A DNA stretch of 26,681 bases, taken from positions 1 to 26,681 of IMG/VR virus record IMGVR_UViG_3300047557_003354; one strand, 5' to 3'. The notes beneath the pieces are model-generated. The model saw only the letters and a program-made list of their open reading frames with translations. It did not search any database and had not been told where the DNA came from. Origin of the DNA: a virus. The position numbers were made by a program, and so were the translations under genes. Positions 907 to 21,564 of the stretch are shown here, in pieces; position 1 is the stretch's first letter, and the number at the start of each line of letters is the position of its first letter.

Positions 907-1689
907 CTACTTACGCCTCAGGACTCTATTTATTATTCCATGTTTTTCTGGGCACTCGGCCAAAGCCTTGTCGACCGTTATTCCATGACGCCTATATGGA
1001 CCGGCGGTTCCCCCGCGCGGAGCTATGCTCCCCATCCCAAATCCGCGAGTAGCCACGTACTTGTAATCTGACTCATCTGCAAAATCAATTTCAGAAAAAT
1101 CGGCACTTCGCTTGAACGGAATGAGCTGAGCTATTGGTGTTCCAAATGGGATTGTAAATGCTGCGTCGCTCGTTATGTTGAGAACAATATTTGCAGTGTG
1201 GTAATAATCCGTGTGCACAATTGCTGGGACAACAGAAAAGTTAGGATTTGGCTCCCAGTACAAAGGCAGGAGCAGCGTTGACCATCCCGGTGCTGTTTCA
1301 ATTCTCCATGGATTAACCAGCTTAGGGTACTGTCCTTCCTCTATCTTCCTCATGGCGGTCATTGGGCACGAACCGGTCGAATCAAAACCGAATCCCTGTA
1401 CCTGCCCTATGTCTGCAGGAGGTGAGTAGTCATCAGAGCCAGTCTCCCAGAACATCCCGCTTTCGTGCGGCCTGAACCTATAGTTGGTCCACAGCGGCAA
1501 CGTAACACCGGCGGCGAGCAAGTCGATTGTCCCAGCACATCTCCTAATAGAGCCAGGGTGCTTGCCTATTCTTTTAAACCAGGTTGGAGGATTTCCGATT
1601 GTATTAACAGTTGGGGCACAGTCAAGCATTCTGTTGTCGGGAGGGGTGAACCTTATCTGCCCTGGCTTTAGTTTCGGCTTGTGTCTCAT
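907..1689 (-). CDS. Phage protein resembling DUF6065-type proteins, unknown function
   Basis: This 260-aa protein is probably rich in beta structure. Three blocks stand out: PWRIETAPGWS at about 127-137, VVPAIVHTDYYH at 153-164 and GTPIAQLIPFKR at 183-194. This pattern (Pro-Trp, a PGWS turn, a TDxY strand, then a G-x-P-x-A-Q-x-I-P-F-x-R strand) matches my memory of DUF6065-like proteins and of unknown cyanophage proteins; I could not run a search. A longer start at 1701 exists, but the ATG at 1689 is preferred. It has GGAG 6 bases upstream and forms a four-base ATGA overlap with the halogenase stop. That coupling suggests co-expression with the halogenase. It could be a binding partner or substrate-handling protein, but the function is unknown. 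Confidence 0.85.
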   Translation of the reverse strand: MRHKPKLKPGQIRFTPPDNRMLDCAPTVNTIGNPPTWFKRIGKHPGSIRRCAGTIDLLAAGVTLPLWTNYRFRPHESGMFWETGSDDYSPPADIGQVQGFGFDSTGSCPMTAMRKIEEGQYPKLVNPWRIETAPGWSTLLLPLYWEPNPNFSVVPAIVHTDYYHTANIVLNITSDAAFTIPFGTPIAQLIPFKRSADFSEIDFADESDYKYVATRGFGMGSIAPRGGTAGPYRRHGITVDKALAECPEKHGIINRVLRRK

Positions 1690-3185
1690 CTGCTGCTCCA
1701 TTCCTGGTCTAGTCGAGCAGTTTCCCTCAGTGCCGCCGCATGGTCGACTAATTCGTGATTATTGCGGGCCTGGCGCAACTTGTCTATTTCTGAACTAATA
1801 CGCTCGCGCAGTCCCATCCTGTTGATAGTCAAACTACAAGGAGTAGTGGTAATGACTCCCTGTCCTTGCGCGACATGGGCTAGGTGGGGGGACATAAACA
1901 TTTCGCCATTGTTGTTAGGTATGTCATACCGAGTAGGCGGCCGCTCTTTCCAAAGTTCCAAAAGTTCCTCTAGCTCTGGGTTTATCGGCATATCCGCCAT
2001 TGCGCGCCAGAATGGGGTATCTACTCTGTCCGAATAGTAGTGAAGGCGAATCATTGTCAAAATATTGCGCATTAACGTCGAAAATGACTTGTTGAAATGT
2101 TTTTGTGATGCCGTATTCCCTGGCTGATATGCGGCCACATATGGGACGATTTGTTTTATTTGCTGGATAGTTGACCCAATGCTCGTTGCTTCTAGGGGCT
2201 CAACAAAGCTAGATGCCAAGCCAATAGCGCAACAATTTTTAACCCAACAATTTTTTAAATACCCAGCATCAAACCTGAAATGACGGTTTTTTTCTATTGC
2301 GTATCCAGACTTTTGGGAAGCCTGATGTACAGCCTGTTCCTCATCGCAGAATTGCGAGCTGAACACGTAACCATTGCCACGACGCTCTTGAGTTGGTATT
2401 TCCCACATCCAACCCGAATCCATTGCCATTGCTCTCGTATACCCGCGTATCTGGCCGCTTGGGTCGCTTTCTGTTGGAAAAGCAATAGCGCTATCGCACA
2501 AAAGGTATTTTGAGTACGATTCCCAATCTGCAGAACCAATTGAATTCATTAAAACGCGGTTGAAGCCAGTCGCATCAAAGAAAAAATCACCAGGTATTTC
2601 AGTGCCGTCATCAAGTACCAGTGATTCAATATCTCCTGTGTCGCTATTCGTTTTGACAGTAGAAATTTCGGCGTCGACAAACCGTATACGCCTATTAAAC
2701 GCAAGCGATGTCAAAAACTCGTTCAATTTGAAAGTATCGAAATGATACTGGTTTGTAGAGTTATGCAAATTTTGACGGCTAATTTTATTTCGTATTAAGC
2801 CAATGCTGGAAGTTTGATTCGTGAGCAATTTTTCTTGTTCAAAGAATCCAACATATGTTGCATGTACACCAAAAGCAAATATGTCATCGGACCCAGAAAT
2901 ACTATGAAAGTAGTCTGGTGTATGTGTTGACCAGTCTTCAAACCTAATTCCATATTTATGAGTTGCCGCCGTGTCGACAATCATGCGTTCAAGAGGAATA
3001 TCACAAAGCTCCATGAAACTGCGCCAGTGTTCGGTGCTTCCCTCCCCCACGCCGATTATCCCAATTTTGGATGACGAGACTATGGTTATTGGCAAGTCGG
3101 GAAAAGCTCTACGCAAAATTAGGGATGCTAGTAACCCGGCTGTTCCTGAACCAGCTATGACAATACTGAAAGGTCTATCTTGCAT
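1686..3185 (-). CDS. Flavin-dependent tryptophan halogenase-like protein
   Basis: This 499-aa protein is of the FAD-dependent tryptophan halogenase family (PrnA/RebH type), whose members use FADH2, O2 and halide to halogenate an indole or similar ring. Visible hallmarks are the FAD motif GSGTAG at residues 12-17, a GVGEGST segment at 45-51, and K77 at the place of the catalytic lysine (K79 of PrnA). The signature GWMWEIP is at 258-264, and SFVEPLEATSI at 326-336 puts E332 at the place of PrnA E346 and T334 near the chloride site. Length is close to the family's roughly 500-540. The ATG at 3185 has AAGGAA 7 bases upstream. No flavin reductase is visible in the window, so host FADH2 would be needed. 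Free tryptophan, a peptide or another aromatic could be the substrate. Confidence 0.95.
   Translation of the reverse strand: MQDRPFSIVIAGSGTAGLLASLILRRAFPDLPITIVSSSKIGIIGVGEGSTEHWRSFMELCDIPLERMIVDTAATHKYGIRFEDWSTHTPDYFHSISGSDDIFAFGVHATYVGFFEQEKLLTNQTSSIGLIRNKISRQNLHNSTNQYHFDTFKLNEFLTSLAFNRRIRFVDAEISTVKTNSDTGDIESLVLDDGTEIPGDFFFDATGFNRVLMNSIGSADWESYSKYLLCDSAIAFPTESDPSGQIRGYTRAMAMDSGWMWEIPTQERRGNGYVFSSQFCDEEQAVHQASQKSGYAIEKNRHFRFDAGYLKNCWVKNCCAIGLASSFVEPLEATSIGSTIQQIKQIVPYVAAYQPGNTASQKHFNKSFSTLMRNILTMIRLHYYSDRVDTPFWRAMADMPINPELEELLELWKERPPTRYDIPNNNGEMFMSPHLAHVAQGQGVITTTPCSLTINRMGLRERISSEIDKLRQARNNHELVDHAAALRETARLDQEWSSR
1696..1699 (-). promoter_or_regulatory. Ribosome binding site deciding the 1689 start
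   Basis: GGAG lies 6 bases before the ATG at 1689, inside the region that a longer start at 1701 would treat as coding. The longer start would have AGGA immediately adjacent, a poor spacing. Confidence 0.55.
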
Positions 3186-3194
3186 AAATTTTCC

Positions 3195-3779
3195 TTATTT
3201 GAACCATGTGACAAGCGAATACTTTATTCCACCCGTTACAGGGTGAGCGATATGTGCATACGGGAAATTGGCTGGGAAACAAACGACAGTTCCGCATTTT
3301 GGCTCTACAGAAAAGTCGAAAAGTGGAAACTCCAGTTCGCCACCAGACTCCGGAGACAATATGAATGCAACCATACTCCAAACACGCGAGTTGTCTGGCC
3401 CATGGTCATGATGGGCGTGATACTCTCCACCGCCGATGTACTTCAATAGTCCATACGGTTCGTGTGCCCCATGTGGCAATAAATGCTGTAGCCGATAATC
3501 GGCGGTAGCCATTTCTATAGGGTTTCGTATGTCGGATGTGAAAATCTCAGATAGTTCTGTAGGTTCGTATGGTGGCATCAAGGGAATCATTGAGCACGAT
3601 AGGGAAGTCCTGTGCTGCGTAACTTGCCCTATCTCACCCACGGCAGACTGCGTCCACGATAGGTCGCTAAACCCGGATTTTATTTCTTTCTCTATCGCAT
3701 CAATAAAGTTTGATGCGGCAGATTCTGTAAATACGTCTGTATATATAGAAATAGCTGTTGCTGGTGAGTGGTGTTTCAT
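3195..3779 (-). CDS. 2-oxoglutarate/Fe(II)-dependent oxygenase (prolyl-4-hydroxylase-like fold)
   Basis: This 194-aa protein is of the 2OG-Fe(II) oxygenase superfamily, which hydroxylates or otherwise oxidises substrates using Fe(II), O2 and 2-oxoglutarate. The iron triad is visible: H123 and D125 in the YHAHHDHG stretch and H179 in AHPVTGG. K186, seven residues after the distal histidine, sits where 2OG is bound. Lysine here is typical of prolyl-4-hydroxylases, whereas PKHD-type enzymes use arginine. The double-stranded beta-helix core covers about residues 108-194. The start overlaps the stop of the 138-aa gene (ATGA), and the halogenase begins 9 bases downstream, so the enzymes are probably co-expressed. 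The substrate is unknown; protein side chains or small molecules are both possible. Confidence 0.93.
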   Translation of the reverse strand: MKHHSPATAISIYTDVFTESAASNFIDAIEKEIKSGFSDLSWTQSAVGEIGQVTQHRTSLSCSMIPLMPPYEPTELSEIFTSDIRNPIEMATADYRLQHLLPHGAHEPYGLLKYIGGGEYHAHHDHGPDNSRVWSMVAFILSPESGGELEFPLFDFSVEPKCGTVVCFPANFPYAHIAHPVTGGIKYSLVTWFK

Positions 3780-4192
3780 TGGACGTAAATTTCTCCTGTT
3801 AGATATTCTGTTCCGCAGTTTATTATTGAATAACGGACAGTTCCCACAGACTCAAATCTGGGGCGAAACAGAATCTTGTGGGTTTCCCGAAGCCTAGGTT
3901 TCAGTGTAAATGATTCATCATTTAGCACATATTCCATGCGGGCGTCATTGCAAAAAACAGTGAATTCGTCTGTTATGTCGACCATATGTACATACCCAAC
4001 ACGAGCCTGCTCAGGTGCGTCTAAAAACCTATGCTCAGGCATGGCGGCAAAAGTAATTAAATCGCTATGAATCCCATCATCTTCTGAACCAAGAACTATA
4101 GACAGACAGCTGTCCATAGCCATCTCTAGCGCTTTCTGCGGTGGATTTTCTCCATCATGGAGATTATGTGGGACGTATACAAATCGCTTCAC
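3776..4192 (-). CDS. Hypothetical protein in the oxygenase/halogenase cassette
   Basis: This 138-aa protein belongs to no family I recognise. It starts with a GTG at 4192, 12 bases after the 74-aa gene, without a clear ribosome site, and overlaps the oxygenase start by four bases (ATGA). The sequence mixes acidic stretches (GSEDDG, VDITDEF) with beta-like strands and has no signal peptide or membrane segment. Strict coupling to the oxygenase suggests a shared role, but no catalytic motif can be seen. Confidence 0.8.
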   Translation of the reverse strand: MKRFVYVPHNLHDGENPPQKALEMAMDSCLSIVLGSEDDGIHSDLITFAAMPEHRFLDAPEQARVGYVHMVDITDEFTVFCNDARMEYVLNDESFTLKPRLRETHKILFRPRFESVGTVRYSIINCGTEYLTGEIYVQ

Positions 4193-4204
4193 GCGACCAG
4201 GCTA

Positions 4205-4429
4205 CTACATAGCTGCGAGCTTGGTCTCCACCATCGAAAGTGCATTAACAAGAGAATCTAGACGCATTTTTTCGCCCATCATGAGGTCGCTCACTTCAGT
4301 CACGCCATGCTCATACGTATCTGGGTCAAGCCCCATGCGAATCAAAATATTAAAAATGTCTGTTGACAAGTTTGATTTTGCTGCCTGAAGAGCAGAAAGT
4401 TTTTGCTGAGTGCTTAAATTGAGTTCCAT
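4205..4429 (-). CDS. Small helical protein following the His-rich adhesin
   Basis: This 74-aa protein is predicted as two or more helices separated by a GLDPDTYEHG turn, with coiled-coil-like leucine spacing. It is a paralogue of the 83-aa protein at 648-899; 33 residues align without gaps. The ATG at 4429 has a strong AGGAG site a few bases upstream, and the gene begins 12 bases after the stop of the His-rich adhesin. Small helical genes directly after phage fibre genes are often assembly chaperones, so that is a plausible but unproven role. Confidence 0.85.
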   Translation of the reverse strand: MELNLSTQQKLSALQAAKSNLSTDIFNILIRMGLDPDTYEHGVTEVSDLMMGEKMRLDSLVNALSMVETKLAAM

Positions 4430-4441
4430 GTTTTCTCCTGT

Positions 4442-6130
4442 TTAACTTATTAAAACATACGCTGCGCCTGAACTGGCGGTAAACGAATTTTCTCCAGCCC
4501 CAAGCAAGCCAGCATTTGTATTGTAAGTTATTGACGGACTAATCTCTCGAGTAACAATTATAACCGCTCCTCCCCCGCCGCCGCCGCCACGTTTTCCTGT
4601 CTGGCCAATTTGCGCAGGGGCACCTCTGCCATGAGAGGCATCGTTTACGCCACCAGCGCCTCCTGCGTATACGGTGTCTGGATTTGGGTGCGACGTTGGA
4701 GCAACGTGATTATGACTATATGTAGCGTTGTGGTTGGGGTGATGTGAATGGCCTCCACGAGTAGGGGAATGCCCGTTGGAGTGGGTTGAAATATCCTTAT
4801 GCGTGTGGCCGTCATGTCCGCCAACATTCCCGTGCCATACACCCGAGTGATGGTGGCCGTATGGGGAGCCATGTGAGTGGCCATGCGGCCCACCATTGGG
4901 CTTGCTATGCCAATGCCCAAAATGGTAGTGGTGGCTTATTTGAAAATAGGCATGCCAGTGATGGCCGTCGTAATGGTGCATACCCCCATGAGGCCCGTCA
5001 TTGTGAGGGTGGTGCCAATGTCCACCATGGTGGTGGTGTGGAGTCGCATGGTGATGTGGGGTGCCATGATGGTGTGGGGTGCCATGGTGATGTGGGGTGG
5101 TATGGGCGACATGCGCACCATGTTTATAGTCCGGCGCATGCACGTGTTCCTGGACGTGTTGTTGAACATGTTGCTGTACGTGCTGACGGGCGGCATGTAA
5201 GTGGGCGTCTGAGTGATTAGTTTGATGATGGTGGTGCGAAGGGTTTAGGGTTGGCGGATTGGGGTGAGAAGTAGCAGGGTTTGTATGCGTTAGATTGGGG
5301 GCGGCAGCACCATTTGCACCACCAGGAGCGCCGCCGGAGCCAGCCGAGCCAGCCGAGCCAGCCGAGCCATCTATTCCTAGAGACACAAACTGACCACTTC
5401 CCGTTATGGTGTTTGCAATAACTGCGACTACGCCACCGCCAGCTCCACCCGCGCCGCCAGCTCCACCTGGTCCTGCTGTTGCACCAGTGGCTGTTCCATC
5501 CGGTGCGGGATAACCTTTCCCGCCGGATGCTCCAATAATATTCGCATTGGGGGCATATCCACCAGGGCTTCCTTCTTTACCAGCTTTATTTGGCCAACTA
5601 GCAGAGTTGGTTAGAGCTGGTGTCGACGCTCCCGTTGCACCCTGCGAGCCTCGAGAACCTCCGGCAATCACAGCAGTATTCCCGGATACGCCAGAAGTGA
5701 AGACCCCACCAATCATAGTGTCTACGGATTTATATAAGTACGCAGGCAATACAGACACGTTTGGGTTTGTGTTGCCACCGCCCTGGCCGCCCAGTCTGTA
5801 AGTAATTGACGAAGTAGTGCTTCCAGATACTGTTCCGGGGGAGGTAGCAGATGTTGGGTTAGTAACGCCACCACTTCCATTTGCAAGACCCAACCCTATG
5901 AAGCCATTGTTTGTAAGTGTGCCTTTTACAAATATCCTAAACCCGTTTGTATTCAGGACAACCCCAGAGTTAACGGTTAGGTTGTTGTAGTACATGTCGG
6001 ATGTCAGTGTTGTGTTTGTTGAAACGGTTACGTTTCCGTCCTGGCCGTTTCCATATATGGCTATCCCACCAGCACGTTGTTCAAGCTTGTTATTGATTCG
6101 GAGAAGGCCAGTTTCTAGTTCGCGCGTCAT
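4442..6130 (-). CDS. Glycine-rich adhesin/tail fibre with a histidine-rich domain
   Basis: This 562-aa protein is modular. Residues 27-80 hold a beta module with TLTSDMYYNNLTV, also found in the 243-aa protein just upstream. Residues 110-275 are rich in glycine, alanine and serine (GGAGGAGGAGGG, GSA repeats). Residues 281-482 hold 64 histidines (about 32 percent), with four tandem TPHHHx units, QHVQ repeats and W in HWH settings at 372, 392 and 407. Residues 490-562 return to glycine-rich beta sequence (GGGGGGGAVIIV). Glycine-rich blocks of this kind resemble receptor-binding adhesins with polyglycine helices (T2/S16 gp38 style). That comparison is by eye. The histidines could bind metal ions. 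Placement in the fibre cluster supports a tail-tip role. Confidence 0.85.
   Translation of the reverse strand: MTRELETGLLRINNKLEQRAGGIAIYGNGQDGNVTVSTNTTLTSDMYYNNLTVNSGVVLNTNGFRIFVKGTLTNNGFIGLGLANGSGGVTNPTSATSPGTVSGSTTSSITYRLGGQGGGNTNPNVSVLPAYLYKSVDTMIGGVFTSGVSGNTAVIAGGSRGSQGATGASTPALTNSASWPNKAGKEGSPGGYAPNANIIGASGGKGYPAPDGTATGATAGPGGAGGAGGAGGGVVAVIANTITGSGQFVSLGIDGSAGSAGSAGSGGAPGGANGAAAPNLTHTNPATSHPNPPTLNPSHHHHQTNHSDAHLHAARQHVQQHVQQHVQEHVHAPDYKHGAHVAHTTPHHHGTPHHHGTPHHHATPHHHHGGHWHHPHNDGPHGGMHHYDGHHWHAYFQISHHYHFGHWHSKPNGGPHGHSHGSPYGHHHSGVWHGNVGGHDGHTHKDISTHSNGHSPTRGGHSHHPNHNATYSHNHVAPTSHPNPDTVYAGGAGGVNDASHGRGAPAQIGQTGKRGGGGGGGAVIIVTREISPSITYNTNAGLLGAGENSFTASSGAAYVLIS
5027..5098 (-). repeat. Four tandem 18-bp units encoding TPHHHx
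   Basis: Residues 345-368 are four adjacent copies of Thr-Pro-His-His-His plus one variable residue (Gly, Gly, Ala, His). Near-identical DNA units suggest recent expansion by slippage, so copy number may vary between strains. Confidence 0.85.
5138..5185 (-). repeat. 12-bp repeats encoding QHVQ
   Basis: Residues 316-331 read as repeated Q-H-V-Q/E units within the histidine-rich domain. They probably form a short amphipathic helix with histidines at regular spacing. Confidence 0.65.
5333..5368 (-). repeat. 9-bp repeats encoding Gly-Ser-Ala
   Basis: Three near-identical GSA units plus a partial fourth occur at residues 255-266 of the glycine-rich adhesin. This is a low-complexity expansion. 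Confidence 0.75.
5976..5998. repeat. 23-bp direct repeat, copy A (562-aa adhesin)
   Basis: This is identical to 6661-6683 and encodes the DMYYNNLT core. It is a candidate site for recombination between the two adhesin genes. Confidence 0.8.
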
Positions 6131-6131
6131 A

Positions 6132-6863
6132 TTATGAAACTCTTATATATATAGATGTTCCCGCATTTTGGCCGCTTACATCTGTTGAAACATTTGATGG
6201 CAATTGCTCACCGGAAGAAATAACAATTACTACACCACCGCCAGCAGGAGGTGTTGCTGGAGCTGCTATTTTAGAGTTTGTTGTCGTCGCAGAACTTGTT
6301 ATATACCTAGCGGCAACAATTACTACCCCACCGCCAGCTTGGCCAACTCCTCCTGCACCGCCACGCAAGAATAGGGGGCTTGATTGCGACGCTGAAATAG
6401 CCCAACCTCTTATTGCATTATGCGCCTGGTAGTAGTATTTAGCACCACCAACAGATGCAGCAGGAAGTGTCGCCGACAAAGTTGCGGATGCGCCGCCAAG
6501 ACTGTTGGTTACAGCCTCAAGCAGTGTTCCACCTCCGGCTATTGTTCCGGTAGCAGAAGAGCCTGTAGTAAAACCTATTACGGAACCATTGTGCAATTGC
6601 AGTAAGTTTTTAACAAACAAACGATATCCGCCAGTGTTTAAAACAACATTCGCACCAATTGTTAGGTTGTTGTAGTACATGTCTGCGGTAAGTGTGGTGT
6701 TGCTGGATATTGTCGCATCACCGTCGGCCCCAGTTCCATATATTGGGTCGGCATACTGCGTGAACGAGCCAAGAAGGTTTGCAGACGTATAGCCCTCTTC
6801 TTGCGCTATATCAGCAAGAGAGCGGTTCATTCGCCTAAAACTAAATCTTGACCTATTGGCCAT
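6132..6863 (-). CDS. Glycine-rich tail fibre/adhesin, paralogue of the His-rich adhesin
   Basis: This 243-aa protein shares a central module with the next gene: a D/N-x-T/S-x-S-NTTLTxDMYYNNLT segment, then VVLNTGGYRLFVK. The later part contains glycine-rich strands ending in hydrophobic tails (AGGGVVIVAARYI and AGGGVVIVISSGE), a pattern common in phage and bacterial surface adhesins. It lacks the histidine-rich insert. The first 22 residues are basic (MANRSRFSFRRMNR). It starts by a one-base TAATG overlap with the 110-aa gene. It is likely an exchangeable receptor-binding or shaft part. The function is inferred from context and composition. Confidence 0.8.
   Translation of the reverse strand: MANRSRFSFRRMNRSLADIAQEEGYTSANLLGSFTQYADPIYGTGADGDATISSNTTLTADMYYNNLTIGANVVLNTGGYRLFVKNLLQLHNGSVIGFTTGSSATGTIAGGGTLLEAVTNSLGGASATLSATLPAASVGGAKYYYQAHNAIRGWAISASQSSPLFLRGGAGGVGQAGGGVVIVAARYITSSATTTNSKIAAPATPPAGGGVVIVISSGEQLPSNVSTDVSGQNAGTSIYIRVS
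6661..6683. repeat. 23-bp direct repeat, copy B (243-aa adhesin)
   Basis: This is identical to 5976-5998, about 685 bases away. Recombination between them would delete or fuse the adhesins in frame. Confidence 0.8.
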
Positions 6864-7195
6864 TACGACTCCACTATGCCCGTAAATACGGCGTTAACAA
6901 CGTTCCCCGTACTAGCGCTTGCCCAAACTTTATATCCACTAGGAACAAATAAATCAGGAGTAAGCATGATTGTTTCTTGCGCCGTCATGCTGAGCTCATG
7001 AAAAATTCTATTAGCTGCAGCAGTAGATGATGCCCCAGAGTTCGTTAAAGAAATACGAACAGTCACTGTCGACGAACTTGTATTGCAAAGAATAATCTGC
7101 GTAACCAGCGTGTCGGCCGATGCCGTAATAGTGGCCGATTCGCTTGCGTGAACAGGCAACTGTGCTTGAGTCAAGAGTGATTGTACTAATTCCAT
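6863..7195 (-). CDS. Small beta-rich fibre-associated protein
   Basis: This 110-aa, beta-rich protein is a paralogue of the 110-aa protein at 11662-11994. Both contain a strand of the form I/V-x-Q-I-I-x-CNTS, then an NRIF or NRFM stretch and a C-terminal G-I-V/W-E. The shared length and position beside fibre genes suggest a repeated structural part, perhaps a small capsid- or fibre-decorating sandwich domain (inference). A strong AGGAG lies about 6 bases before the ATG. Confidence 0.8.
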   Translation of the reverse strand: MELVQSLLTQAQLPVHASESATITASADTLVTQIILCNTSSSTVTVRISLTNSGASSTAAANRIFHELSMTAQETIMLTPDLFVPSGYKVWASASTGNVVNAVFTGIVES

Positions 7196-7202
7196 GATGC
7201 TC

Positions 7203-9017
7203 CTATATCTTTATGATGTAGTTAAGAACTATGTAAGGCTGGAGATTCCCGGCATTGCCGCCACCAGAAGAGCCGGTGTATTCAGTCGAAGATATACCTG
7301 TCGTGAATGTATGTGAGTGAGCTGTTCCAGCTTGACTTGTTCTTGTGTAGTTTGTAAGACCGCCAACTGTATATTGAGAGCCAAAGTTAACGGCTGCTCC
7401 ACCATCTGGCGTATAGTCGACATAGTTGTGAACGTGAGCACCTTCTGTATTTGTCGTCCCCGTATGGGTATGTGCTGCGCCAGGGTGAGTGTGTGCCTGT
7501 AGTTCTTTATGCCCCCCCGTTTCGCCAAGGGCATCAAAAGACGTATCTCCAGAATCAAGTCCTACAGGAACTTTTCCTTTTAGATTAGGAACATTAAACG
7601 TTGTTGAACCATCGCCGGAACCATACAGAGTCCCTATGGCAGTGAAGAGGCTTGCATAAGTTGTCCTTGATATCGCCTGGCCATCACAAAGGACCCACCC
7701 ATCAGGTATTGACAATCCTGCAAACATTGAAATCATTCCAGGAGGCGAGTACCAAGAGCCTTCTTGACTATCTAGAAGGTCAGAGTTTAGGTTTGAAACT
7801 TTCGTAGTTGAAGATACTGTTAGTGGTGCAGTGCCAGTAGGTTGCGTTAGTTCAATCTTTAAAGCCTTAATTGGGGCATCTTGATAAGAGGCATGAGCAA
7901 CATTGATGTCTGCCCCTGGCTCTTCCGTATAACCCTGAAAGAATTTAAATGTCCCATCTGTGGCGTCACGAAACATACCAGCATGCTTATAGGTGCCGTC
8001 GTTATAGTTTCCAGCAATACCAAGGTCTGGATTTGTTATCGTGCTGCCGTCATTTAGATAAATAAACGCATCTTCGACCGCAAGGTTTGTTTCATTAACG
8101 GTATTTAATGTCCCAGAAACAGTTAAATCACCAGTAATAGTTAAATTATGAAATTCGACGTCATCAGTAGTTGCTACTGCTTGACCTATTGAGATGGTGG
8201 GTGTGGCTGTTTCACCAGAATTATTAGCTAGCGCAACACCTGTTCCGGCAACGAGAGAAGCAACGTAGTCTCCAGTTGTTTGTGTTCCAAGAGTAATGGC
8301 TAGGTCGGATTTAACAACTTCGGTGACTTGGCCGTATGAGTTAGTAGAAATATCATGTATATACTGAGTCTTTGACCCAGCAATTCCATTTGTTCTTGAA
8401 ACAGTATCCAGGCTTACTGTTGGGCTAGAACCTTCTCCGGGGGTGTGGGTAACAATTATCCCCGACCCAGCTGTTAAGTCAGAGACATAGCTCCCTGTCG
8501 TATCGGTCCCAAGGGCAATAGTCCCAAGGAGAGCAACTGTGCCACTCGCGTCCTGAAGAGTCACTGTTCTATCTGCAGTAGCATCAGTGGCAACAATTAC
8601 TGTTTTATAATCATTGGCTGTGCCTTCGATAATTAACGATGTTCCGACTGTTGCAGAACCGGTAATTGTTAGGGCTGCGAATGTTGGCGAATCTCCTGTT
8701 CCGACTGCTTGGCCAATGGCAATTGTTGGGGTAACACCCTCGCCAGAGCCACTAGTTACGGTCACTCCGGTACCTGCGTTGACTGCCTCAACATAGTCAC
8801 CGGTTGTTGAAGCGCCTAGCTCGATAGAACCTGCTGACGTCGAGATTACGTCTATAACGCCAGATTCAGTGACTCTAAAAACAGAGTTGCCTGCCTCATC
8901 CTTAATGTCAAGTAATGCTCCAGTTGATTCTGAATCAGCTTTTTGGATAACGAAAGAATCGTCCCCGATAGTAAATATGGGGGCCGAATCAAATCTTTTC
9001 CGCTTAAATAGAGGCAT
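7203..9017 (-). CDS. Tail fibre with phage tail-collar domain and HxH motifs
   Basis: This 604-aa protein has an N-terminal KRKRFDSAPIFTIG segment, then a shaft of repeats such as LGTDTTGSYVSDLTAG and HTPGEGSSPTVSL, which recur in the 1380-aa fibre. A TGDLTVSGTLNTVNETNLAVED module follows. A tail-collar domain sits at about 426-485 (PPGMISMFAG, PDGWVLCDGQ, NVPNLKGKVPVG). The tip has four HxH motifs at about 509-511, 516-518, 528-530 and 567-569, and the protein ends in LQPYIVLNYIIKI, the usual end of collar-type short fibres. HxH motifs in the T4 gp37 tip coordinate iron, so metal binding is plausible. A TTG two codons upstream would leave no spacing from AAGGA, so the ATG at 9017 is preferred. 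Confidence 0.92.
   Translation of the reverse strand: MPLFKRKRFDSAPIFTIGDDSFVIQKADSESTGALLDIKDEAGNSVFRVTESGVIDVISTSAGSIELGASTTGDYVEAVNAGTGVTVTSGSGEGVTPTIAIGQAVGTGDSPTFAALTITGSATVGTSLIIEGTANDYKTVIVATDATADRTVTLQDASGTVALLGTIALGTDTTGSYVSDLTAGSGIIVTHTPGEGSSPTVSLDTVSRTNGIAGSKTQYIHDISTNSYGQVTEVVKSDLAITLGTQTTGDYVASLVAGTGVALANNSGETATPTISIGQAVATTDDVEFHNLTITGDLTVSGTLNTVNETNLAVEDAFIYLNDGSTITNPDLGIAGNYNDGTYKHAGMFRDATDGTFKFFQGYTEEPGADINVAHASYQDAPIKALKIELTQPTGTAPLTVSSTTKVSNLNSDLLDSQEGSWYSPPGMISMFAGLSIPDGWVLCDGQAISRTTYASLFTAIGTLYGSGDGSTTFNVPNLKGKVPVGLDSGDTSFDALGETGGHKELQAHTHPGAAHTHTGTTNTEGAHVHNYVDYTPDGGAAVNFGSQYTVGGLTNYTRTSQAGTAHSHTFTTGISSTEYTGSSGGGNAGNLQPYIVLNYIIKI
8419..8438. repeat. 20-bp direct repeat, copy A (604-aa fibre)
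   Basis: This is identical to 12456-12475 and encodes part of the GEGSSPT shaft repeat. Confidence 0.75.
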
Positions 9018-9023
9018 AGACAA

Positions 9024-9028
9024 TCCTT
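9024..9028 (-). promoter_or_regulatory. Ribosome binding site deciding the 9017 start
   Basis: AAGGA lies 6 bases before the ATG at 9017, good spacing. It directly abuts a TTG at 9023, which rules against that upstream start. Confidence 0.6.
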
Positions 9029-9037
9029 AAAACCAGC

Positions 9038-9066
9038 GTTCTACTCTAATTATGGCATAGTAGAAC
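9038..9066 (-). terminator. Hairpin in the 106-base gap upstream of the collar fibre
   Basis: A perfect 8-bp inverted repeat, GTTCTACT and AGTAGAAC, is separated by a 13-base loop. On the minus strand it is followed by a GCTGGTTTTAAGG stretch. It could be a weak terminator or an RNA processing/protection hairpin ahead of the 604-aa fibre. The short T-run makes full termination doubtful. The rest of the gap (9067-9123) contains a TTGACA but no convincing -10 box at the right spacing. Confidence 0.4.
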
Positions 9067-9123
9067 ACCGCCACGGTCCACAAATCCCACGCTCTAAATG
9101 CGTAGTGTCAATAATTGACGAGT

Positions 9124-9285
9124 CTATTCAGATGCATCTGGTGCAGTATTTTGCCCAGCGGTCATCATCTTATTTAATTCTACGACGAGCTGGGAAACAC
9201 GAGCCTGCAGCACGATGTTTTCCATAGTTAGCGAGTGAATGCGCTTTGACATCTCGTCAATAATTACTTGTGGATTTAGTTCCAT
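9124..9285 (-). CDS. Small coiled-coil protein
   Basis: This 53-aa protein starts MELNPQ and is mostly one helix with heptad-like hydrophobics (IVLQARVSQLVVELNKMM), then a short polar tail. The ATG at 9285 is two bases after the stop of the C1q-like gene. A GTG at 9363 in the same frame would overlap that gene by 76 bases and add cysteine- and aromatic-rich residues unlike the rest, so the short form is preferred. It may be a fibre-assembly or chaperone-like peptide, comparable in size and position to the 74-aa gene. The function is unproven. Confidence 0.75.
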   Translation of the reverse strand: MELNPQVIIDEMSKRIHSLTMENIVLQARVSQLVVELNKMMTAGQNTAPDASE

Positions 9286-9287
9286 GA

Positions 9288-9890
9288 TTAACCAATCAAG
9301 CTTCCTCTGAAATATGTGTGAAAGGAGTTCGAATAGACAGTCACAGACGAACCACCGGACCACGAAACAAAACCAACTGTATCATTTGCATTAAGATACA
9401 AAAATCCACTTCCAGACACATTAGCTGAGTTTGTGTTATCTAAAGCAAAAGACCTTTCTCTCGCTCCATTAATAACCCACCAAAGCTGACTAACTAGCCC
9501 GCTTTGATATACACCAGCCTGGAATATATATGTACCAGATACTGGTGCAGTGAATAGACCAGTGCTAGTGCTGTAGTGTCCACCAACATTGTAGGTTGTA
9601 GAATTCATTATTACTGGTGTTGTCTGAGCCGCCGGGTTATAAGAGTAATCAGAAGACCTTGTAGCGAGAAATCTAGGCTGGTTTGGTGTCTGCACAATGC
9701 CAGTAGCACTAACTGTTAGGGAATCAATTTTCCCTATGCCAACCCATGCTGCTCCGCTCCAAACTAAAACCCTGTCAGTATCGGTCTCGTAAATGACTTG
9801 CCCCTCGTAGGGCGATGTTGGTCGCGTTGACGATGTGCATACACCCGGCTGAGATATGCGGCTGCTTGGAAGATAATTAGAAAGACCCAC
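9288..9890 (-). CDS. Short tail fibre with C1q-like C-terminal domain
   Basis: This 200-aa protein has two parts. Residues 14-53 form a shared anchor (PGVCTSSTRPTSPYEGQ, then VIYETDTDRVLVWSGAAWV), found with 29 of 40 residues identical in the next gene upstream. Residues of about 85-200 look like a C1q/TNF-like jelly-roll (VGGHYSTSTGLFTAPVSGTY, then FLYLNANDTVGF and a final aromatic strand), a trimeric binding domain common at phage fibre tips. The GTG start at 9890 is two bases after the preceding stop and matches the GTG start chosen for its paralogue. It is probably a receptor-binding or carbohydrate-binding part. Confidence 0.85.
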   Translation of the reverse strand: MGLSNYLPSSRISQPGVCTSSTRPTSPYEGQVIYETDTDRVLVWSGAAWVGIGKIDSLTVSATGIVQTPNQPRFLATRSSDYSYNPAAQTTPVIMNSTTYNVGGHYSTSTGLFTAPVSGTYIFQAGVYQSGLVSQLWWVINGARERSFALDNTNSANVSGSGFLYLNANDTVGFVSWSGGSSVTVYSNSFHTYFRGSLIG

Positions 9891-9892
9891 AA

Positions 9893-10546
9893 CTATGACC
9901 TATATCCATAAACAAAGTAATTGAACGTATTTGTGTCATTGGAAACTGTATTTGTTATCCTGAAGCCATCAAATGACTGCGCAGCGCTTTGATATCCACC
10001 GCCCGAGTATCCAGCATCATAGTTTGTTGAAACCCACTGAACTGTAGTTTGGTCAGTCTCGAATGGGCGCTGGATTTCTATCTGTGAAGCGCTAGGGCTA
10101 CCATTGGAAGATGTAATTACAGTGAAGTAAACAAGACCGCCAGAGCCAGAGTTTGCAGGGCCAAATCCTCCGGACCATGTTGAATAGTAAGCCCCCCAAT
10201 AATATGCGGAGCTAGGCGCAGAACCTGAGCTTGTCATTTGCAGTGCAATTGTTCTAATTCCTCCAGGGGAAGTAAAATCATTAAGAATTATTCTGTAGTT
10301 AGTGTACTCAGAAGAAAAAACATTATTCAGAATAAAGTTATTCCCAGAATATGAACCTGAAGTAATTAACTGTAGTCCTGGAGGCTGGTCAGTGTCTGCA
10401 ATCATTACCCATGCGGCACCCTCATACACCAATACACGATTTGTGTTTGTTTCGTATATCATCTGACCTTCGTACGGCGTTGTGGGTCGAGTTGTAGACG
10501 TACATATACCAGGACGAAGATTGCTTGATACGTTACTGATTCCCAC
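9893..10546 (-). CDS. Short tail fibre sharing an anchor with the C1q-like fibre
   Basis: This 217-aa protein has the same anchor as its neighbour (residues 11-50, RPGICTSTTRPTTPYEGQ and so on) followed by a different beta-rich tip containing YYWGAYYSTWSGGFG and an FDGFRITNT strand near the end. A longer start (ATG at 10594) exists, but the GTG at 10546 is preferred. It has GGAG 5 bases upstream, its product begins VGISN like the paralogue's MGLSN, and it shortens the overlap with the 53-aa gene at 10533-10694 to 14 bases. The tip fold is not recognised. A receptor-binding role is inferred from the anchor and neighbours. Confidence 0.8.
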   Translation of the reverse strand: MGISNVSSNLRPGICTSTTRPTTPYEGQMIYETNTNRVLVYEGAAWVMIADTDQPPGLQLITSGSYSGNNFILNNVFSSEYTNYRIILNDFTSPGGIRTIALQMTSSGSAPSSAYYWGAYYSTWSGGFGPANSGSGGLVYFTVITSSNGSPSASQIEIQRPFETDQTTVQWVSTNYDAGYSGGGYQSAAQSFDGFRITNTVSNDTNTFNYFVYGYRS

Positions 10547-10694
10547 TAGAGCTCCATTCCTCTGGCGTATTCCCTTCAGATAACCAAACAGCATAATCTA
10601 ATGCATATTCAGTTGTGCCGGTAGGGTCAAAATTGGCTGACCAATTTTCAGCAACAACAATAATATCGTCACCTTTTGTATAGTACTTAATCAT
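10533..10694 (-). CDS. Small hypothetical protein nested between two fibre genes
   Basis: This 53-aa frame starts with an ATG overlapping the stop of the 323-aa fibre gene (ATGA) and ends 14 bases inside the next gene. It accounts for the only sizeable space between these two genes. The product begins MIKYYTKGDDIIVVAENW and continues with FDPTGTTEYALDYAVWLSEG, with acidic and aromatic residues and no repeats. The ATGA coupling and the protein-like composition argue that it is real. It is unlike the fibres, and no function can be given. Confidence 0.65.
   Translation of the reverse strand: MIKYYTKGDDIIVVAENWSANFDPTGTTEYALDYAVWLSEGNTPEEWSSSGNQ
10552..10555 (-). promoter_or_regulatory. Ribosome binding site deciding the 10546 GTG start
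   Basis: GGAG lies 5 bases before the GTG at 10546. A second AGAGGA sits slightly further upstream at 10558-10563. No comparable site was noted for the ATG at 10594. Confidence 0.55.
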
Positions 10695-11662
10695 AGTTCC
10701 GCATCCTGAATCAACGTTGAACTACCGCTATTCGAATAAAACCCGCTCTGATTTGTATTACCTATAGATGGATTGACTGTCGACGTCAGAATCATCCAGT
10801 TTGCTCCCCTGTCATAAATAGAAGGAGAAGCAGAAGTGTTTATGACTGTCCAAGAGCCAGATATAGTAGCACTAGACGGCCTAGACCTCATAACGACAGG
10901 CATGGGAACAAGAAGTGTAAAAGTTGTGCTTGCTGGTTGATATACGCTGCACCACAAGTCTCCATTATTTGCACTTACCCAGCGCCAGTAATACCTTTGA
11001 CACAGTTCTAGTTCCACTCCAATAGGGCGCTGCTCAAACGGGGTGGCAACAGAACCTCTCTCTAACTGAACATCTGCGACTTTGACAATTTTTCCATATG
11101 TTGTATGCCCGCTAGTTTGAATTTCAACCTGCAAGCCATTATTGATATTGGAGTAACCAGATATATCAACGGTATGTGTAACTTTTGTCCAAGTCGCATT
11201 ACTGCAAGATTGTAAAGGCTGCGTGAGCATGTTGGTTACGGTTGTGAAGTTGTCCGCAGCAGATGGCGTACCGAGCAATAAGTTCGGGGTGATGGAAGAA
11301 CCTGTACTGTTATAAATCCAGGCAGAGAATGTAACAAAACCCTTGAGCCCATAAACATGGGCTGACTCTATTTTTTGCCCTAATCTGCACGTGCTTCCCC
11401 CAACACCATTGGGGGTAATGGCTAGCGAATATCTAGAATTGTTTTCTGGCGGAACAGATGTATCTCGGATAGCCCCCATTAGTGCTCCAACTGGAGACAT
11501 AAACCATCTATCTGCTGTATACCCTGTTGCACCAGAGGCGACATCTATTGATGTTGCAATCCATCTTTGCCATACATCAAACCCCCCGTTGATTAGCTTG
11601 TTACGAAAACTTAAACCAGCAGGGGCAAGTGCAGCAGCACCCAGTCCAGAAGAAATACCCAT
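10691..11662 (-). CDS. Tail fibre / carbohydrate-binding-like adhesin
   Basis: This 323-aa protein begins with a Gly/Ala-rich leader, then the widespread phage-fibre opening FRNKLINGGFDVWQR at about 19-33 and a YTADRWFM segment. The middle forms a jelly-roll-like sandwich of the kind often annotated as a carbohydrate-binding module, ending near DVQLERGSVATPFEQRP and followed by LCQRYYWRW. The last 90 residues are a separate beta-rich tip. It starts by a one-base TAATG overlap with the 110-aa gene. The likely role is binding host surface sugars from the tail, based on the family pattern and neighbours. Confidence 0.87.
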   Translation of the reverse strand: MGISSGLGAAALAPAGLSFRNKLINGGFDVWQRWIATSIDVASGATGYTADRWFMSPVGALMGAIRDTSVPPENNSRYSLAITPNGVGGSTCRLGQKIESAHVYGLKGFVTFSAWIYNSTGSSITPNLLLGTPSAADNFTTVTNMLTQPLQSCSNATWTKVTHTVDISGYSNINNGLQVEIQTSGHTTYGKIVKVADVQLERGSVATPFEQRPIGVELELCQRYYWRWVSANNGDLWCSVYQPASTTFTLLVPMPVVMRSRPSSATISGSWTVINTSASPSIYDRGANWMILTSTVNPSIGNTNQSGFYSNSGSSTLIQDAEL

Positions 11663-18877: not shown

Positions 18878-20095
18878 TTATTCCGTCATAACATGCGTCA
18901 GCTTGACGCCAATTGGTTTAGCTTTCTGCACAGCCTCGAGAACAAGGCTAGAAGACTCCCCAATCATTGATTCGTCCCCACCAATTGTTTCATGCCATGG
19001 TGTTTCTATTGTTATTTCAAATGGGTGTATTGAGTAGTCGTAGATTAGAGATACAGTTTTATCCCCGACCAGCATCAACTTGACTGCTTCTTCGATGGCC
19101 TGCGTTGTTCCGGCCTTGAAACCAAAACTCTGTGTTTCCACTTGCCACTGTACAAGTTCTCTTTGTGTCTCAGCATTAAATGTTGGCGGGTTGAGGTCTG
19201 AGTATGAAGTTAAACGCAATCCATCTTCTCCGTCTAATAAAGAAGAGTTAAGAAGAAACGGGTCACGGTCTATTTCAAGAGATGATGTAAATCTAGTAAC
19301 AGGCTTAGTCCCAACGAACTTAGAAATCCACAGAAGCCTATCCACATCTGTAACCTCTGGGCTTACTATCGTGCTAAGTGTTGCGTTGCTCGTGTCATTA
19401 TTCCGCATAGCAGTATCTAGATATGCCATTTGTAGGGTTTCCCTGACAGCATCGTCTAATCCACCTGTAGATATATCAATAAATCTATGTAGCGGAATAT
19501 CTATTGGCGCAACGGTAGTGAAGTCATCTTCAAGCATAAAGTCTGGCAAAAATCCAGAAACGTACTGCAGAGCAATATTGTTCTGTATAAATTCCATTTG
19601 TGGACACAAAACAGGGCTTGTGAAATAAACAGTTTCGTTTACTGATTTATCAACAGTGATATTGATTGCTATAGACGGAGAAGGCGAAGTGAACTCTTCC
19701 GTCAAAACGCGTATTATCGACCACTGAGGAGATAACACACCTTCTGCATTAACAGACGAACTAGCGGCAGTAATTTCATATGTGTATATTTGCTGTATCG
19801 ATAGAGAAACTGATGCATCTTCTATGGCGACACTGACAGTACCCCCGTTGGGAGCTTTTAAGCCGAAAACAAATAGAGCTCTAGCGTCATGAAAGCTAGT
19901 GTCTCCTGGCAGGGGGTCTATATATATTGTGTTGGATAAACCGCCACTAAGAGATATCTGACGACAATTAAGTGCCGGAGTCAGCTCTGTAAACCCGGCG
20001 TCACTTATTGTGGTTCCTGGCCCAGCAGTCCAAAATCCGTTTGTATTTAGCGAACGAAGAGTGAATGCATCGCCAGTGAATCTATTACTAATCAC
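18878..20095 (-). CDS. P2 gpI-like baseplate/tail protein with N-terminal extension
   Basis: This 405-aa protein has a beta-rich N-terminal part of about 200 residues (jelly-roll-like strands FTELTPALN, LFVFGLKAP, VSVAIEDAS). Its C-terminal half fits the tail_P2_I family: FLPDFMLED, LLWISKFVG, then FGFKAGTTQAIEEAVKLMLVG and a final AKPIGVKLTHVMTE. gpI joins the baseplate wedge to the fibres. The extension makes it about twice the usual length and could be a binding domain. It starts by a GTGA overlap with the baseplate J gene, the normal gene order for this family. Confidence 0.82.
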   Translation of the reverse strand: MISNRFTGDAFTLRSLNTNGFWTAGPGTTISDAGFTELTPALNCRQISLSGGLSNTIYIDPLPGDTSFHDARALFVFGLKAPNGGTVSVAIEDASVSLSIQQIYTYEITAASSSVNAEGVLSPQWSIIRVLTEEFTSPSPSIAINITVDKSVNETVYFTSPVLCPQMEFIQNNIALQYVSGFLPDFMLEDDFTTVAPIDIPLHRFIDISTGGLDDAVRETLQMAYLDTAMRNNDTSNATLSTIVSPEVTDVDRLLWISKFVGTKPVTRFTSSLEIDRDPFLLNSSLLDGEDGLRLTSYSDLNPPTFNAETQRELVQWQVETQSFGFKAGTTQAIEEAVKLMLVGDKTVSLIYDYSIHPFEITIETPWHETIGGDESMIGESSSLVLEAVQKAKPIGVKLTHVMTE

Positions 20096-21564
20096 GAGAC
20101 CGTAACCTCAACTGTTGCTCTAGGGAGACTTCCCTTGTACAAAAGCTGGAGTGCTGTTACTCCGGTACCGGGGTTTATTTCTTGAATTGCTTTTTCGTTT
20201 CCTGCCATGGCCTGCGCTATGTCGCCGTATTCTGGAATTATGGGCGTCACAGAGTTAACATACGCAACACCATCAACAGAGTTTGCTTTTACTACGACGT
20301 CAAAAACGCGTATTGTTTTTTCCCATTGGGGCCACGCTTCCGGGGAAACAAAATACTGTAGTTCTTCTGCTACGGAAGCTACTACGCCAGATGCAGAATA
20401 TTCACTATCGACAGTTACGTCTACGGAGAATTGTATGTCACATATAAGGGCATCGAGAACAACAAAACTCAATCCAGCGACGATGCGTTCATTTACGGCG
20501 TCATAAATAGCTGTTTTTACGTCACTGGATAACGGGTGACCTTCTTCGTCACATACGAATATTGCAAAAAATCCCGGATACTCAGTTGTATTATCGTGTC
20601 GTAACCTAAACATGTCTATTAGGTCTGCTGCAACCGGAGATATTCCTACGTTTCCTTCGGCAGTAAAGCCTATTTCATTCCCGCTCGGAGAAGTGTCATA
20701 TAACCCTGAAGCTACAGAGGCAATCCCACCGGAACCAGGCTCTCTGTTTATAATGCGTGTATAGTCAGTAAAGTCTGAATTTGTAGCAAAATTATCACTG
20801 ACCAATACGGACGCTGTTTTCAGTGGCACATTTGTTATGACTATAGATTTATCTATATCGTAAACCGGGTTCACTAGGTCGTACACTTTGCATCTGAATG
20901 CATCCGGGAAGTTCGAGACAATGAACTCCTCTATTTGTTCCGCTGTAACTAGTGAGCTACTCAAGGAAGCAAGGTACGAAGTGGCCCTATTAAAGTACTC
21001 TTCGTCCGTTTCTGGTTCGTTTCCTTGATTAATCAGTGTCAATGTTTGGCATGCCAACACAGAAGGATTAGGCTGGACAATTGTCAAGTCTGTACCTGGC
21101 AAAAGTGTGGGTATAACACCAGGCACTTCACACACTAAAGTTGCGTATGCTATTGCTTCTGCTGGCTCTGCAGTTATTTCGGAAGTGGTCCTAAATGGGT
21201 ACTGAACAGTTTCGTTGCCGACAACGGCTTCATAGACAACGAAAAAATTGTTAGGTACAGAAGAGCTGGAATCTACGAGAGTAAACTCGACGTTGACTGT
21301 TGAGAACGTGGCTTCATATCTATTGAAACCCATCAGGCGCAGGATTCCCTCCATTAGACCATGGGGCAATCTATTGATTGTGCTCAGGTTCATTGACGCC
21401 ATCAGTGCACATGCTTGGAGTATCGAGTCCTCGATGGTCCCAACGCGCGGCGTAAATTCGGGCATTGCTATTCTGGCGTATTCAACTGCACTGTCGTAGA
21501 CGTCTGTCGCATCCCTATCGTCAATAGTTAAGTCAATGTATTGGGAAAAATCAGGTGAAGCCAT
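20092..21564 (-). CDS. Baseplate J-like (gp47-like) wedge protein
   Basis: This 490-aa protein is of the baseplate_J family, which forms the wedge arms of contractile tails. The N-terminus has the family pattern MPEFTPRVGTIEDSILQACA, INRLPHGLMEGILRLMGFNR. A TDEEYFNRA motif at about 190 and AEQIEEFIVSNFPDAFRCKV follow, then a C-terminal part with AVNERIVAGLSFVVLDALIC. Length is typical. It is coupled to the gp25-like gene by a one-base TAATG overlap and to the gpI-like gene downstream, as in P2 (W, J, I) and in PBSX-like elements. Confidence 0.92.
   Translation of the reverse strand: MASPDFSQYIDLTIDDRDATDVYDSAVEYARIAMPEFTPRVGTIEDSILQACALMASMNLSTINRLPHGLMEGILRLMGFNRYEATFSTVNVEFTLVDSSSSVPNNFFVVYEAVVGNETVQYPFRTTSEITAEPAEAIAYATLVCEVPGVIPTLLPGTDLTIVQPNPSVLACQTLTLINQGNEPETDEEYFNRATSYLASLSSSLVTAEQIEEFIVSNFPDAFRCKVYDLVNPVYDIDKSIVITNVPLKTASVLVSDNFATNSDFTDYTRIINREPGSGGIASVASGLYDTSPSGNEIGFTAEGNVGISPVAADLIDMFRLRHDNTTEYPGFFAIFVCDEEGHPLSSDVKTAIYDAVNERIVAGLSFVVLDALICDIQFSVDVTVDSEYSASGVVASVAEELQYFVSPEAWPQWEKTIRVFDVVVKANSVDGVAYVNSVTPIIPEYGDIAQAMAGNEKAIQEINPGTGVTALQLLYKGSLPRATVEVTVS

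Follow-up and report, generated by a model that had tools for sequence, protein, structure and literature searches.

A halogenase and a prolyl-4-hydroxylase-like oxygenase linked to a Gly/His-rich phage adhesin: a candidate cassette for adhesin maturation

Phage halogenases have had no settled function ever since they were discovered in cyanophages, and the IMG/VR virus record IMGVR_UViG_3300047557_003354 raises the question of what such an enzyme might modify. The stretch analysed here (the window) comprises 26,681 bases of this record with all long genes on the minus strand, and at the downstream end of its tail module the gene of a putative Gly/His-rich adhesin is followed by genes for a 2-oxoglutarate (2OG) oxygenase and a halogenase. 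An earlier note on this DNA had suggested a virion-modification cassette. In the present comparison the adhesin, the halogenase and the oxygenase were found in stable linkage, with one enzyme set per adhesin in two phages, which is what such a cassette predicts, while the Trp residues proposed as target did not hold up. By a small measure the probable answer is that these genes constitute a cassette devoted to the maturation of the distal adhesin of the phage itself, which the enzymes would modify post-translationally. The neighbouring adhesin would be the first concrete and testable natural target proposed for phage halogenases. The central features are the following, with their basis in brackets.

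4442..6130, minus strand: putative Gly/His-rich adhesin of 562 amino acids with conserved N-terminal beta domain, Gly-rich (collagen/polyglycine-II-like) core, His-rich insert and Gly-rich C-terminal strand (22 homologues, AlphaFold, Pfam Collagen in 3 of the 22 homologues)
4688..5287, minus strand: adhesin insert dense in His (64 His and 4 Trp within residues 282-481), predicted to be disordered (composition; AlphaFold predicted local distance difference test score, pLDDT, below 50 over residues 286-483)
3195..3779, minus strand: 2OG-Fe(II) oxygenase, prolyl-4-hydroxylase-like, HxD...H...K intact (Pfam, alignment, profile search)
1686..3185, minus strand: predicted halogenase of the tryptophan type, dependent on reduced flavin adenine dinucleotide (FADH2), catalytic motifs intact (Pfam, alignment)
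907..1701, minus strand: dUTPase-fold protein of 264 amino acids, overlapping and co-occurring with the halogenase (structure model, relatives)

The cassette family was found in lake and sea viruses of bacteria. Each scan for relatives covered the best 80 matches and returned metagenomic fragments; the adhesin-seeded sets overlap in part, and distinct sets were dereplicated crudely. In the first adhesin-seeded scan, for which adhesins with at least 6 kb of downstream DNA were taken, a halogenase was located within 6 kb of all 52 His-rich adhesins (37/37 distinct ones) and an oxygenase accompanied 48 of the 52. In the second, performed with divergent adhesin queries, both enzymes were present at 51 of 51 His-rich adhesins with sufficient flanking sequence (35/35 distinct), the halogenase again within 6 kb. 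The survey for co-occurrence that the earlier note had called for thus returned a near-perfect linkage. Moreover, among the best 80 loci of the halogenase-seeded scan, the great majority of those at 44% identity or above hold the whole cassette in synteny. One genome (G001/G002) contains two full cassettes in tandem, each adhesin with its own oxygenase and halogenase, the halogenases being 63% and 48% identical to that of the window. In G018 the second cassette is rearranged and inverted, so that its adhesin is convergent with the block of oxygenase, partner and halogenase.

The linkage would also be expected if the tail module were inherited whole in related phages and unrelated enzyme genes were simply carried along. 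The loci were sampled by similarity, and Mantel correlations were similar for structural neighbours: every gene pair correlates (r 0.36-0.80), for which reason co-divergence was rejected as proof of an adhesin-specific tie. Such neutral hitch-hiking is nevertheless regarded as very improbable, as the cassette occurs in phages with at least two unrelated large terminases, an indication that it moves between lineages as a unit, stays together where it is rearranged or inverted (L099, L025, L146) and has been duplicated whole.

A role in auxiliary metabolism, with the halogenase producing a halogenated indole or another metabolite as proposed for cyanophage prnA and lying near tail genes by genome organisation only, is in keeping with a halogenase family known above all for free Trp and for natural products, and with a gene that is located outside tail regions in many cultured cyanophages. 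A host-protecting antibiotic has been suggested for cyanophages, in terms that the source itself calls speculative (PMC2984593). This explanation cannot account for the 52/52 and 51/51 linkage or for the duplicate sets, and the cassette has no biosynthetic partners besides oxygenases and the dUTPase-fold protein; it is therefore considered improbable. A free metabolite and a host-surface substrate had previously been left equally open; in view of linkage and duplicate sets a substrate tied to the adhesin is more likely than the metabolite, while a receptor as substrate stays a serious rival and is the strongest one. According to the latter, the enzymes would alter an aromatic or peptide receptor on the host surface that the adhesin recognises, or the precursor of that receptor in the cytoplasm, and block re-adsorption of progeny or infection by competitors, and the pairing of adhesin and enzymes would mirror receptor specificity. 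The same linkage of one set per adhesin and the same horizontal travel as a unit are predicted, and phage genes that alter receptors represent a known strategy. However, the two enzymes depend on cofactors of the cytosol (reduced flavin, 2-oxoglutarate), an export signal was not apparent on either, though no formal test was made, and the His-rich adhesin, a hydroxylase-like oxygenase beside collagen-like adhesins and the replacement observed at locus L260 (see below) are left unexplained. We rate modification of the receptor as unlikely, although it has to be taken seriously.

The assignment of both enzymes was examined by family, motif and profile. The halogenase matches PF04820 (Trp_halogenase) in Pfam with an expectation value (E-value) of 1.5e-103 and contains GxGxxG (as GSGTAG), K77, WMWEIP and E332, with K77 and E332 at the positions of PrnA K79 and E346. 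All 30 distinct relatives retain GxGxxG, K77 and E332, and WxWxIP is likewise retained, with WMF in three of them, which is consistent with the predicted FADH2-dependent halogenase. The oxygenase matches PF13640 (2OG-FeII_Oxy_3; 3.8e-11), and its iron triad and basic 2OG residue (H123-x-D125, H176, K186) are invariant in 17 aligned sequences. The catalytic residues of both enzymes are thus intact, as had been stated before. In a profile search against the Protein Data Bank (PDB), prolyl 4-hydroxylases were the only matches of the oxygenase, namely those of B. anthracis (5HV0/3ITQ; best 5HV0, 1.8e-12), algal 2JIG and human C-P4H (7ZSC), the further ones being weaker; the alignment covers chiefly the core that binds the metal, and the substrate of the phage enzyme is putative. 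Motif and profile point to a prolyl-4-hydroxylase-like enzyme with predicted activity on Pro. Since some phage cassettes contain a collagen-like partner, this would resemble the classical pairing of hydroxylase and substrate, which is counted in favour of adhesin modification. The model of 907-1701 is confident (pLDDT 87) and dUTPase-like with extra helices and gave 100 PDB matches below 1e-3, the best listed of which are all dUTPases; the match to the dUTPase family in Pfam is weak (0.022). The protein is placed in the dUTPase superfamily by fold, with no catalysis implied. A search of NCBIfam yielded nothing specific. In many relatives an extra gene of 230-390 codons is located between oxygenase and halogenase (e.g. 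L005:9302-9997, L017:8836-9999), and Pfam gave no confident match for these genes.

The 22 adhesin homologues have the N-terminal domain (DMYYNNLTV...TNGFRVFVKGTLTNNG) in common, along with a core and a C-terminal strand that are both Gly-rich, and the insert between the conserved parts is hypervariable, yet His-rich in nearly all of them. In the AlphaFold model the N-terminal and Gly-rich parts are ordered. The composition figures given previously (562 amino acids, 64 His in about 200 residues, four of five Trp in this domain, three as HWH and one as VWH) were all correct on recount, the Trp contexts being GHWHH, HHWHA, GHWHS and GVWHG. The His domain is far from chance and conserved. For Trp, the location of four out of five residues within 200 of 562 positions is unremarkable (P about 0.06), and the occurrence of His on both sides of three of the four (P about 0.004) is a pattern that is not conserved in relatives. 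Comparison of the model with viral structures gave collagen-like proteins as best matches, with low TM-scores that make this a hint only. Against the PDB no match with an E-value below 7 was obtained for this model of low confidence, including the polyglycine-II sandwich of gp38, and tblastn against annotated phages gave no match for the adhesin. The adhesins at L015:6754-8616 and L013:4392-7520 carry an extra domain with the pattern W/FLPSYNELEQM...YWSS...VRPVRSF, reminiscent of C-type-lectin/FGE-like variable receptor-binding domains.

Averaged over 48 distinct adhesins, His makes up 24% of the insert, Gly 13%, and Asn and Pro 9% each, while acidic residues are very scarce. Spacings of 2 between His residues are not enriched over composition (z -1.7), spacings of 3-4 are depleted and those of 5-7 mildly enriched, a pattern of His clusters rather than of an H-x-H needle; a metal needle of the T4 gp37 type was rejected on this basis. 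The same data bear on the possibility that the insert functions solely as a stalk that binds metal or senses pH, resembling the tip of T4 gp37, and that the enzymes serve another virion protein, for example 6132-6863. The 64 His, an H-x-H segment in the neighbouring collar protein and the nearly constant presence of the paralogue 6132-6863 would fit such a stalk, yet with the spacing observed and with a paralogue that has no insert it appears to be the least probable of the explanations considered.

Which residues of the adhesin might be modified was assessed by comparison of the inserts. HWH is present in 6 of the 48 distinct adhesins, 20 of the 48 His domains are without Trp, and four adhesins without any Trp (L047, L153, L171, L183) still have a halogenase; Trp of the His domain was therefore rejected as target, and the earlier suggestion of an indole substrate within the adhesin is not supported. 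In contrast to this lack of conservation, His occurs in every halogenase-bearing adhesin examined in the His-rich family, the lowest counts being 11-16. The sole long homologue with zero His, L260, has the same N-terminal domain and a comparable insert, in which Asn, Pro, Thr and Tyr are abundant instead (Tyr/Pro/Asn repeats). Its 16.7-kb contig contains no halogenase anywhere; in the region 1238-11113 a hydroxylase (7.4e-40) and three proteins like the dUTPase-fold partner are encoded. L260 also encodes two glycosyltransferases of PF11397 (GlcNAc-type), a family to which the Skp1 hydroxyproline GlcNAc-transferase belongs. Attachment of a glycan to hydroxyproline that a prolyl hydroxylase has formed is described in PMC11570480. 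At loci with no detectable oxygenase (n=4, one locus truncated), adhesins have 3.7% Pro compared with 8.6% (P 0.0024) and also less Asn (P 0.009), both values being uncorrected, including for relatedness; the lower Pro content is suggestive only. Taken together, the Trp-free adhesins, the ever-present His, L260 and the drop in Pro lead us to assign the oxygenase tentatively to Pro and the halogenase to His (or Tyr). Halogenated His does occur naturally, for instance as 5-bromohistidine in the skeletons of sponges (PMC8659048).

If the adhesin is the substrate, maturation might proceed as follows. The adhesin is Gly-rich and collagen/polyglycine-II-like and would present an exposed insert in which His, Pro and Asn abound. 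Once it has been made in the infected cell, the oxygenase would hydroxylate it, most likely at Pro of the Gly-X-Pro/Asn-Pro-rich parts. The sites of the halogenase would be ring side chains within the insert: His (or Tyr) in all likelihood, and Trp only occasionally. The dUTPase-fold protein would presumably be an obligate partner. Hardening of the tip, altered metal binding or tuned receptor binding are conceivable effects. A wider proposal, which we put forward as a rather doubtful extension, is that phages halogenate His and hydroxylate Pro in their own receptor-binding tip by means of a swappable cassette, that halogenation can be replaced by sugar addition as at L260, that the neighbours of VirX1 in phage Syn10 are a cultured instance, and that the tip is hardened by metal or halogen.

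In Syn10 the VirX1 gene is located directly after three Gly-rich proteins, two of which have His-containing loops such as FSHNHQTHS, and the one tested matches PF21722. It is followed directly by a second halogenase, then by a homologue of 907-1701 (2e-9), and by several oxygenases, including one with a JmjC_2 protein-hydroxylase domain; in the Syn10 stretches scanned, only one further Gly-rich open reading frame was found. The second halogenase, CPUG_00131 (L086:9502-11094; PF04820, 5e-105), is annotated only as hypothetical protein. A Gly-rich gene near the halogenase was also observed in S-SZBM1, S-H38 and S-SRM01. In S-SRM01, a cultured freshwater Synechococcus phage, the halogenase (L197:11989-14570) has the tail fibre region on one side and, on the other, a gene whose annotation reads gp37-gp38 adhesin tip complex. 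Enzyme pairs apart from any His/Trp-rich fibre had been named as a refuting case, and this case is realised in part, since the pairs of L044, L051, L056-L059 and Syn10 follow Gly-rich, His-poor adhesins.

Several points weigh against modification of the adhesin. In P-SSM2, S-PM2, S-RIM44, S-MbCM25, Sf-CH3, S-B64 and HTVC008M, halogenases of other families lie a long way from every Gly-rich gene, and a Gly-rich neighbour was present for only 5 of 13 distant distinct environmental halogenases; the association of adhesin and halogenase is a strict rule in the family of the window and a partial one for phage halogenases at large. At L050, halogenase and partner have no adhesin within 10 kb upstream. 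As the cassette genes co-diverge with structural neighbours, block inheritance accounts for part of the linkage. The joint loss of His and halogenase is seen in the single 16.7-kb fragment L260, and the adhesin role of 4442-6130 is itself deduced from position, Gly-rich architecture and fibre neighbours. Furthermore, we know of no flavin enzyme that halogenates His.

The enzymes and the adhesin were compared with known systems. VirX1 (PDB 6QGM; 1.6e-41) belongs to the same Pfam family as the window's halogenase, is likewise phage-encoded, and has its gene behind Gly-rich adhesin genes and before a dUTPase-fold partner and oxygenases; unlike the window, identity is about 29% and the Syn10 adhesins are short Gly-rich proteins (PF21722) with few His loops and no His-rich insert. 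The best sequence matches among solved structures are XCC-type and BrvH halogenases (6Y1W, 5e-64; 6FRL), which are cellular enzymes with no tie to a phage adhesin. To our knowledge, their in vivo substrates are not settled. For VirX1, a characterised viral flavin-dependent halogenase, a review gives surrogate substrates only and states no natural one (PMC8407142). The polyglycine-II sandwich adhesins (gp38 of T2, S16 and PP01; PMC12892980) resemble the window's protein in the alternation of Gly-rich motifs with variable exposed segments and in the position at the end of a fibre module, but differ in that there is no significant structural match, no counterpart of the 200-residue His-rich insert, and an N-terminal domain that is unrelated by the searches made. 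The Nereis jaw protein Nvjp-1, rich in His and Gly, has a structural role, binds Zn and, by its published description, probably undergoes halogenation and cross-linking (PMC13120676); as an animal protein acted on by different enzymes it is an analogy of working only. No literature describing such a cassette was found in searches for phage halogenase with adhesin or for tail-fibre hydroxylation. If the adhesin is modified as proposed, phages would put halogens on virion proteins, a finishing known in animals (worm jaws, sponge skeletons) and not from viruses in the literature searched, and the halogenase could be a possible biocatalyst for protein halogenation. Even with another substrate, the obligate pairing of adhesin and halogenase strongly constrains any explanation.

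The remaining genes of the cassette and two structural genes of the window are the following.

6132..6863, minus strand: shorter Gly-rich paralogue of the adhesin, 243 amino acids, same N-terminal domain, without His insert (adjoins the adhesin in nearly all relatives)
4205..4429, minus strand: small helical protein of 74 amino acids (kept in the closest cassettes)
3776..4192, minus strand: protein of 138 amino acids, overlapping the oxygenase start by 4 bases (comparison with relatives)
7203..9023, minus strand: tail-collar fibre protein with C-terminal H-x-H segment, structural context (sequence, Pfam)
20092..21564, minus strand: baseplate wedge/J-like protein (homologue matches)

The window represents a tail module leading from the baseplate wedge/J-like protein (20092-21564) through large fibre proteins to the collar protein (7203-9023), and the baseplate gene indicates that the cassette sits at the end of this module, in the transcription order 6132-6863, 4442-6130, 4205-4429, 3776-4192, 3195-3779, 1686-3185 and 907-1701. 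The enzymes had been described as directly behind the adhesin. The distance is indeed below 700 bases, with 662 bases from adhesin stop to oxygenase start and then 9 bases between oxygenase and halogenase (3185/3195), but two small genes overlooked at that time (4205-4429, 3776-4192) intervene. The dUTPase-fold gene 907-1701, overlooked as well, belongs to the cassette and overlaps the halogenase end by 16 bases (1686/1701); a further overlap of 4 bases is located at 3776/3779. With genes overlapping or almost abutting, the arrangement is compatible with a single operon, and scans for promoters and terminators returned nothing exceeding shuffled sequences.

The host is likely an actinobacterium. 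L182, a 9-kb contig that was assigned by binning to an Actinomycetota genome, encodes a 92%-identical halogenase in the same gene order, and the annotated-phage matches of the baseplate protein are only to phages of Arthrobacter, Gordonia and Brevibacterium. A putative actinophage from Dishui Lake has a halogenase (PMC10611076). Cellular relatives were limited to four genome contigs, at least two of which are phage-like or fragments.

Additional observations concern halogenase arrays and small neighbouring genes. At least three tandem halogenase paralogues together with genes of 2OG oxygenase size were observed in the marine loci L189, L192 and L062-L066, and three Gly-rich adhesin-like genes are located upstream of the arrays in L189 and L192. 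The 23-kb human faecal phage clone MT835646.1 (L201), a fragment, encodes one halogenase on each strand, and no Gly-rich gene adjoins them. In the window, the proteins of 74 (4205-4429) and 83 amino acids (648-899) resemble each other, share a G-[LM]-D-P-D motif and flank the enzyme genes on either side; assembly factors are a possible role. A gene of 218 codons at the window edge (2-655) has counterparts in the closest relatives, located downstream of their halogenase block.

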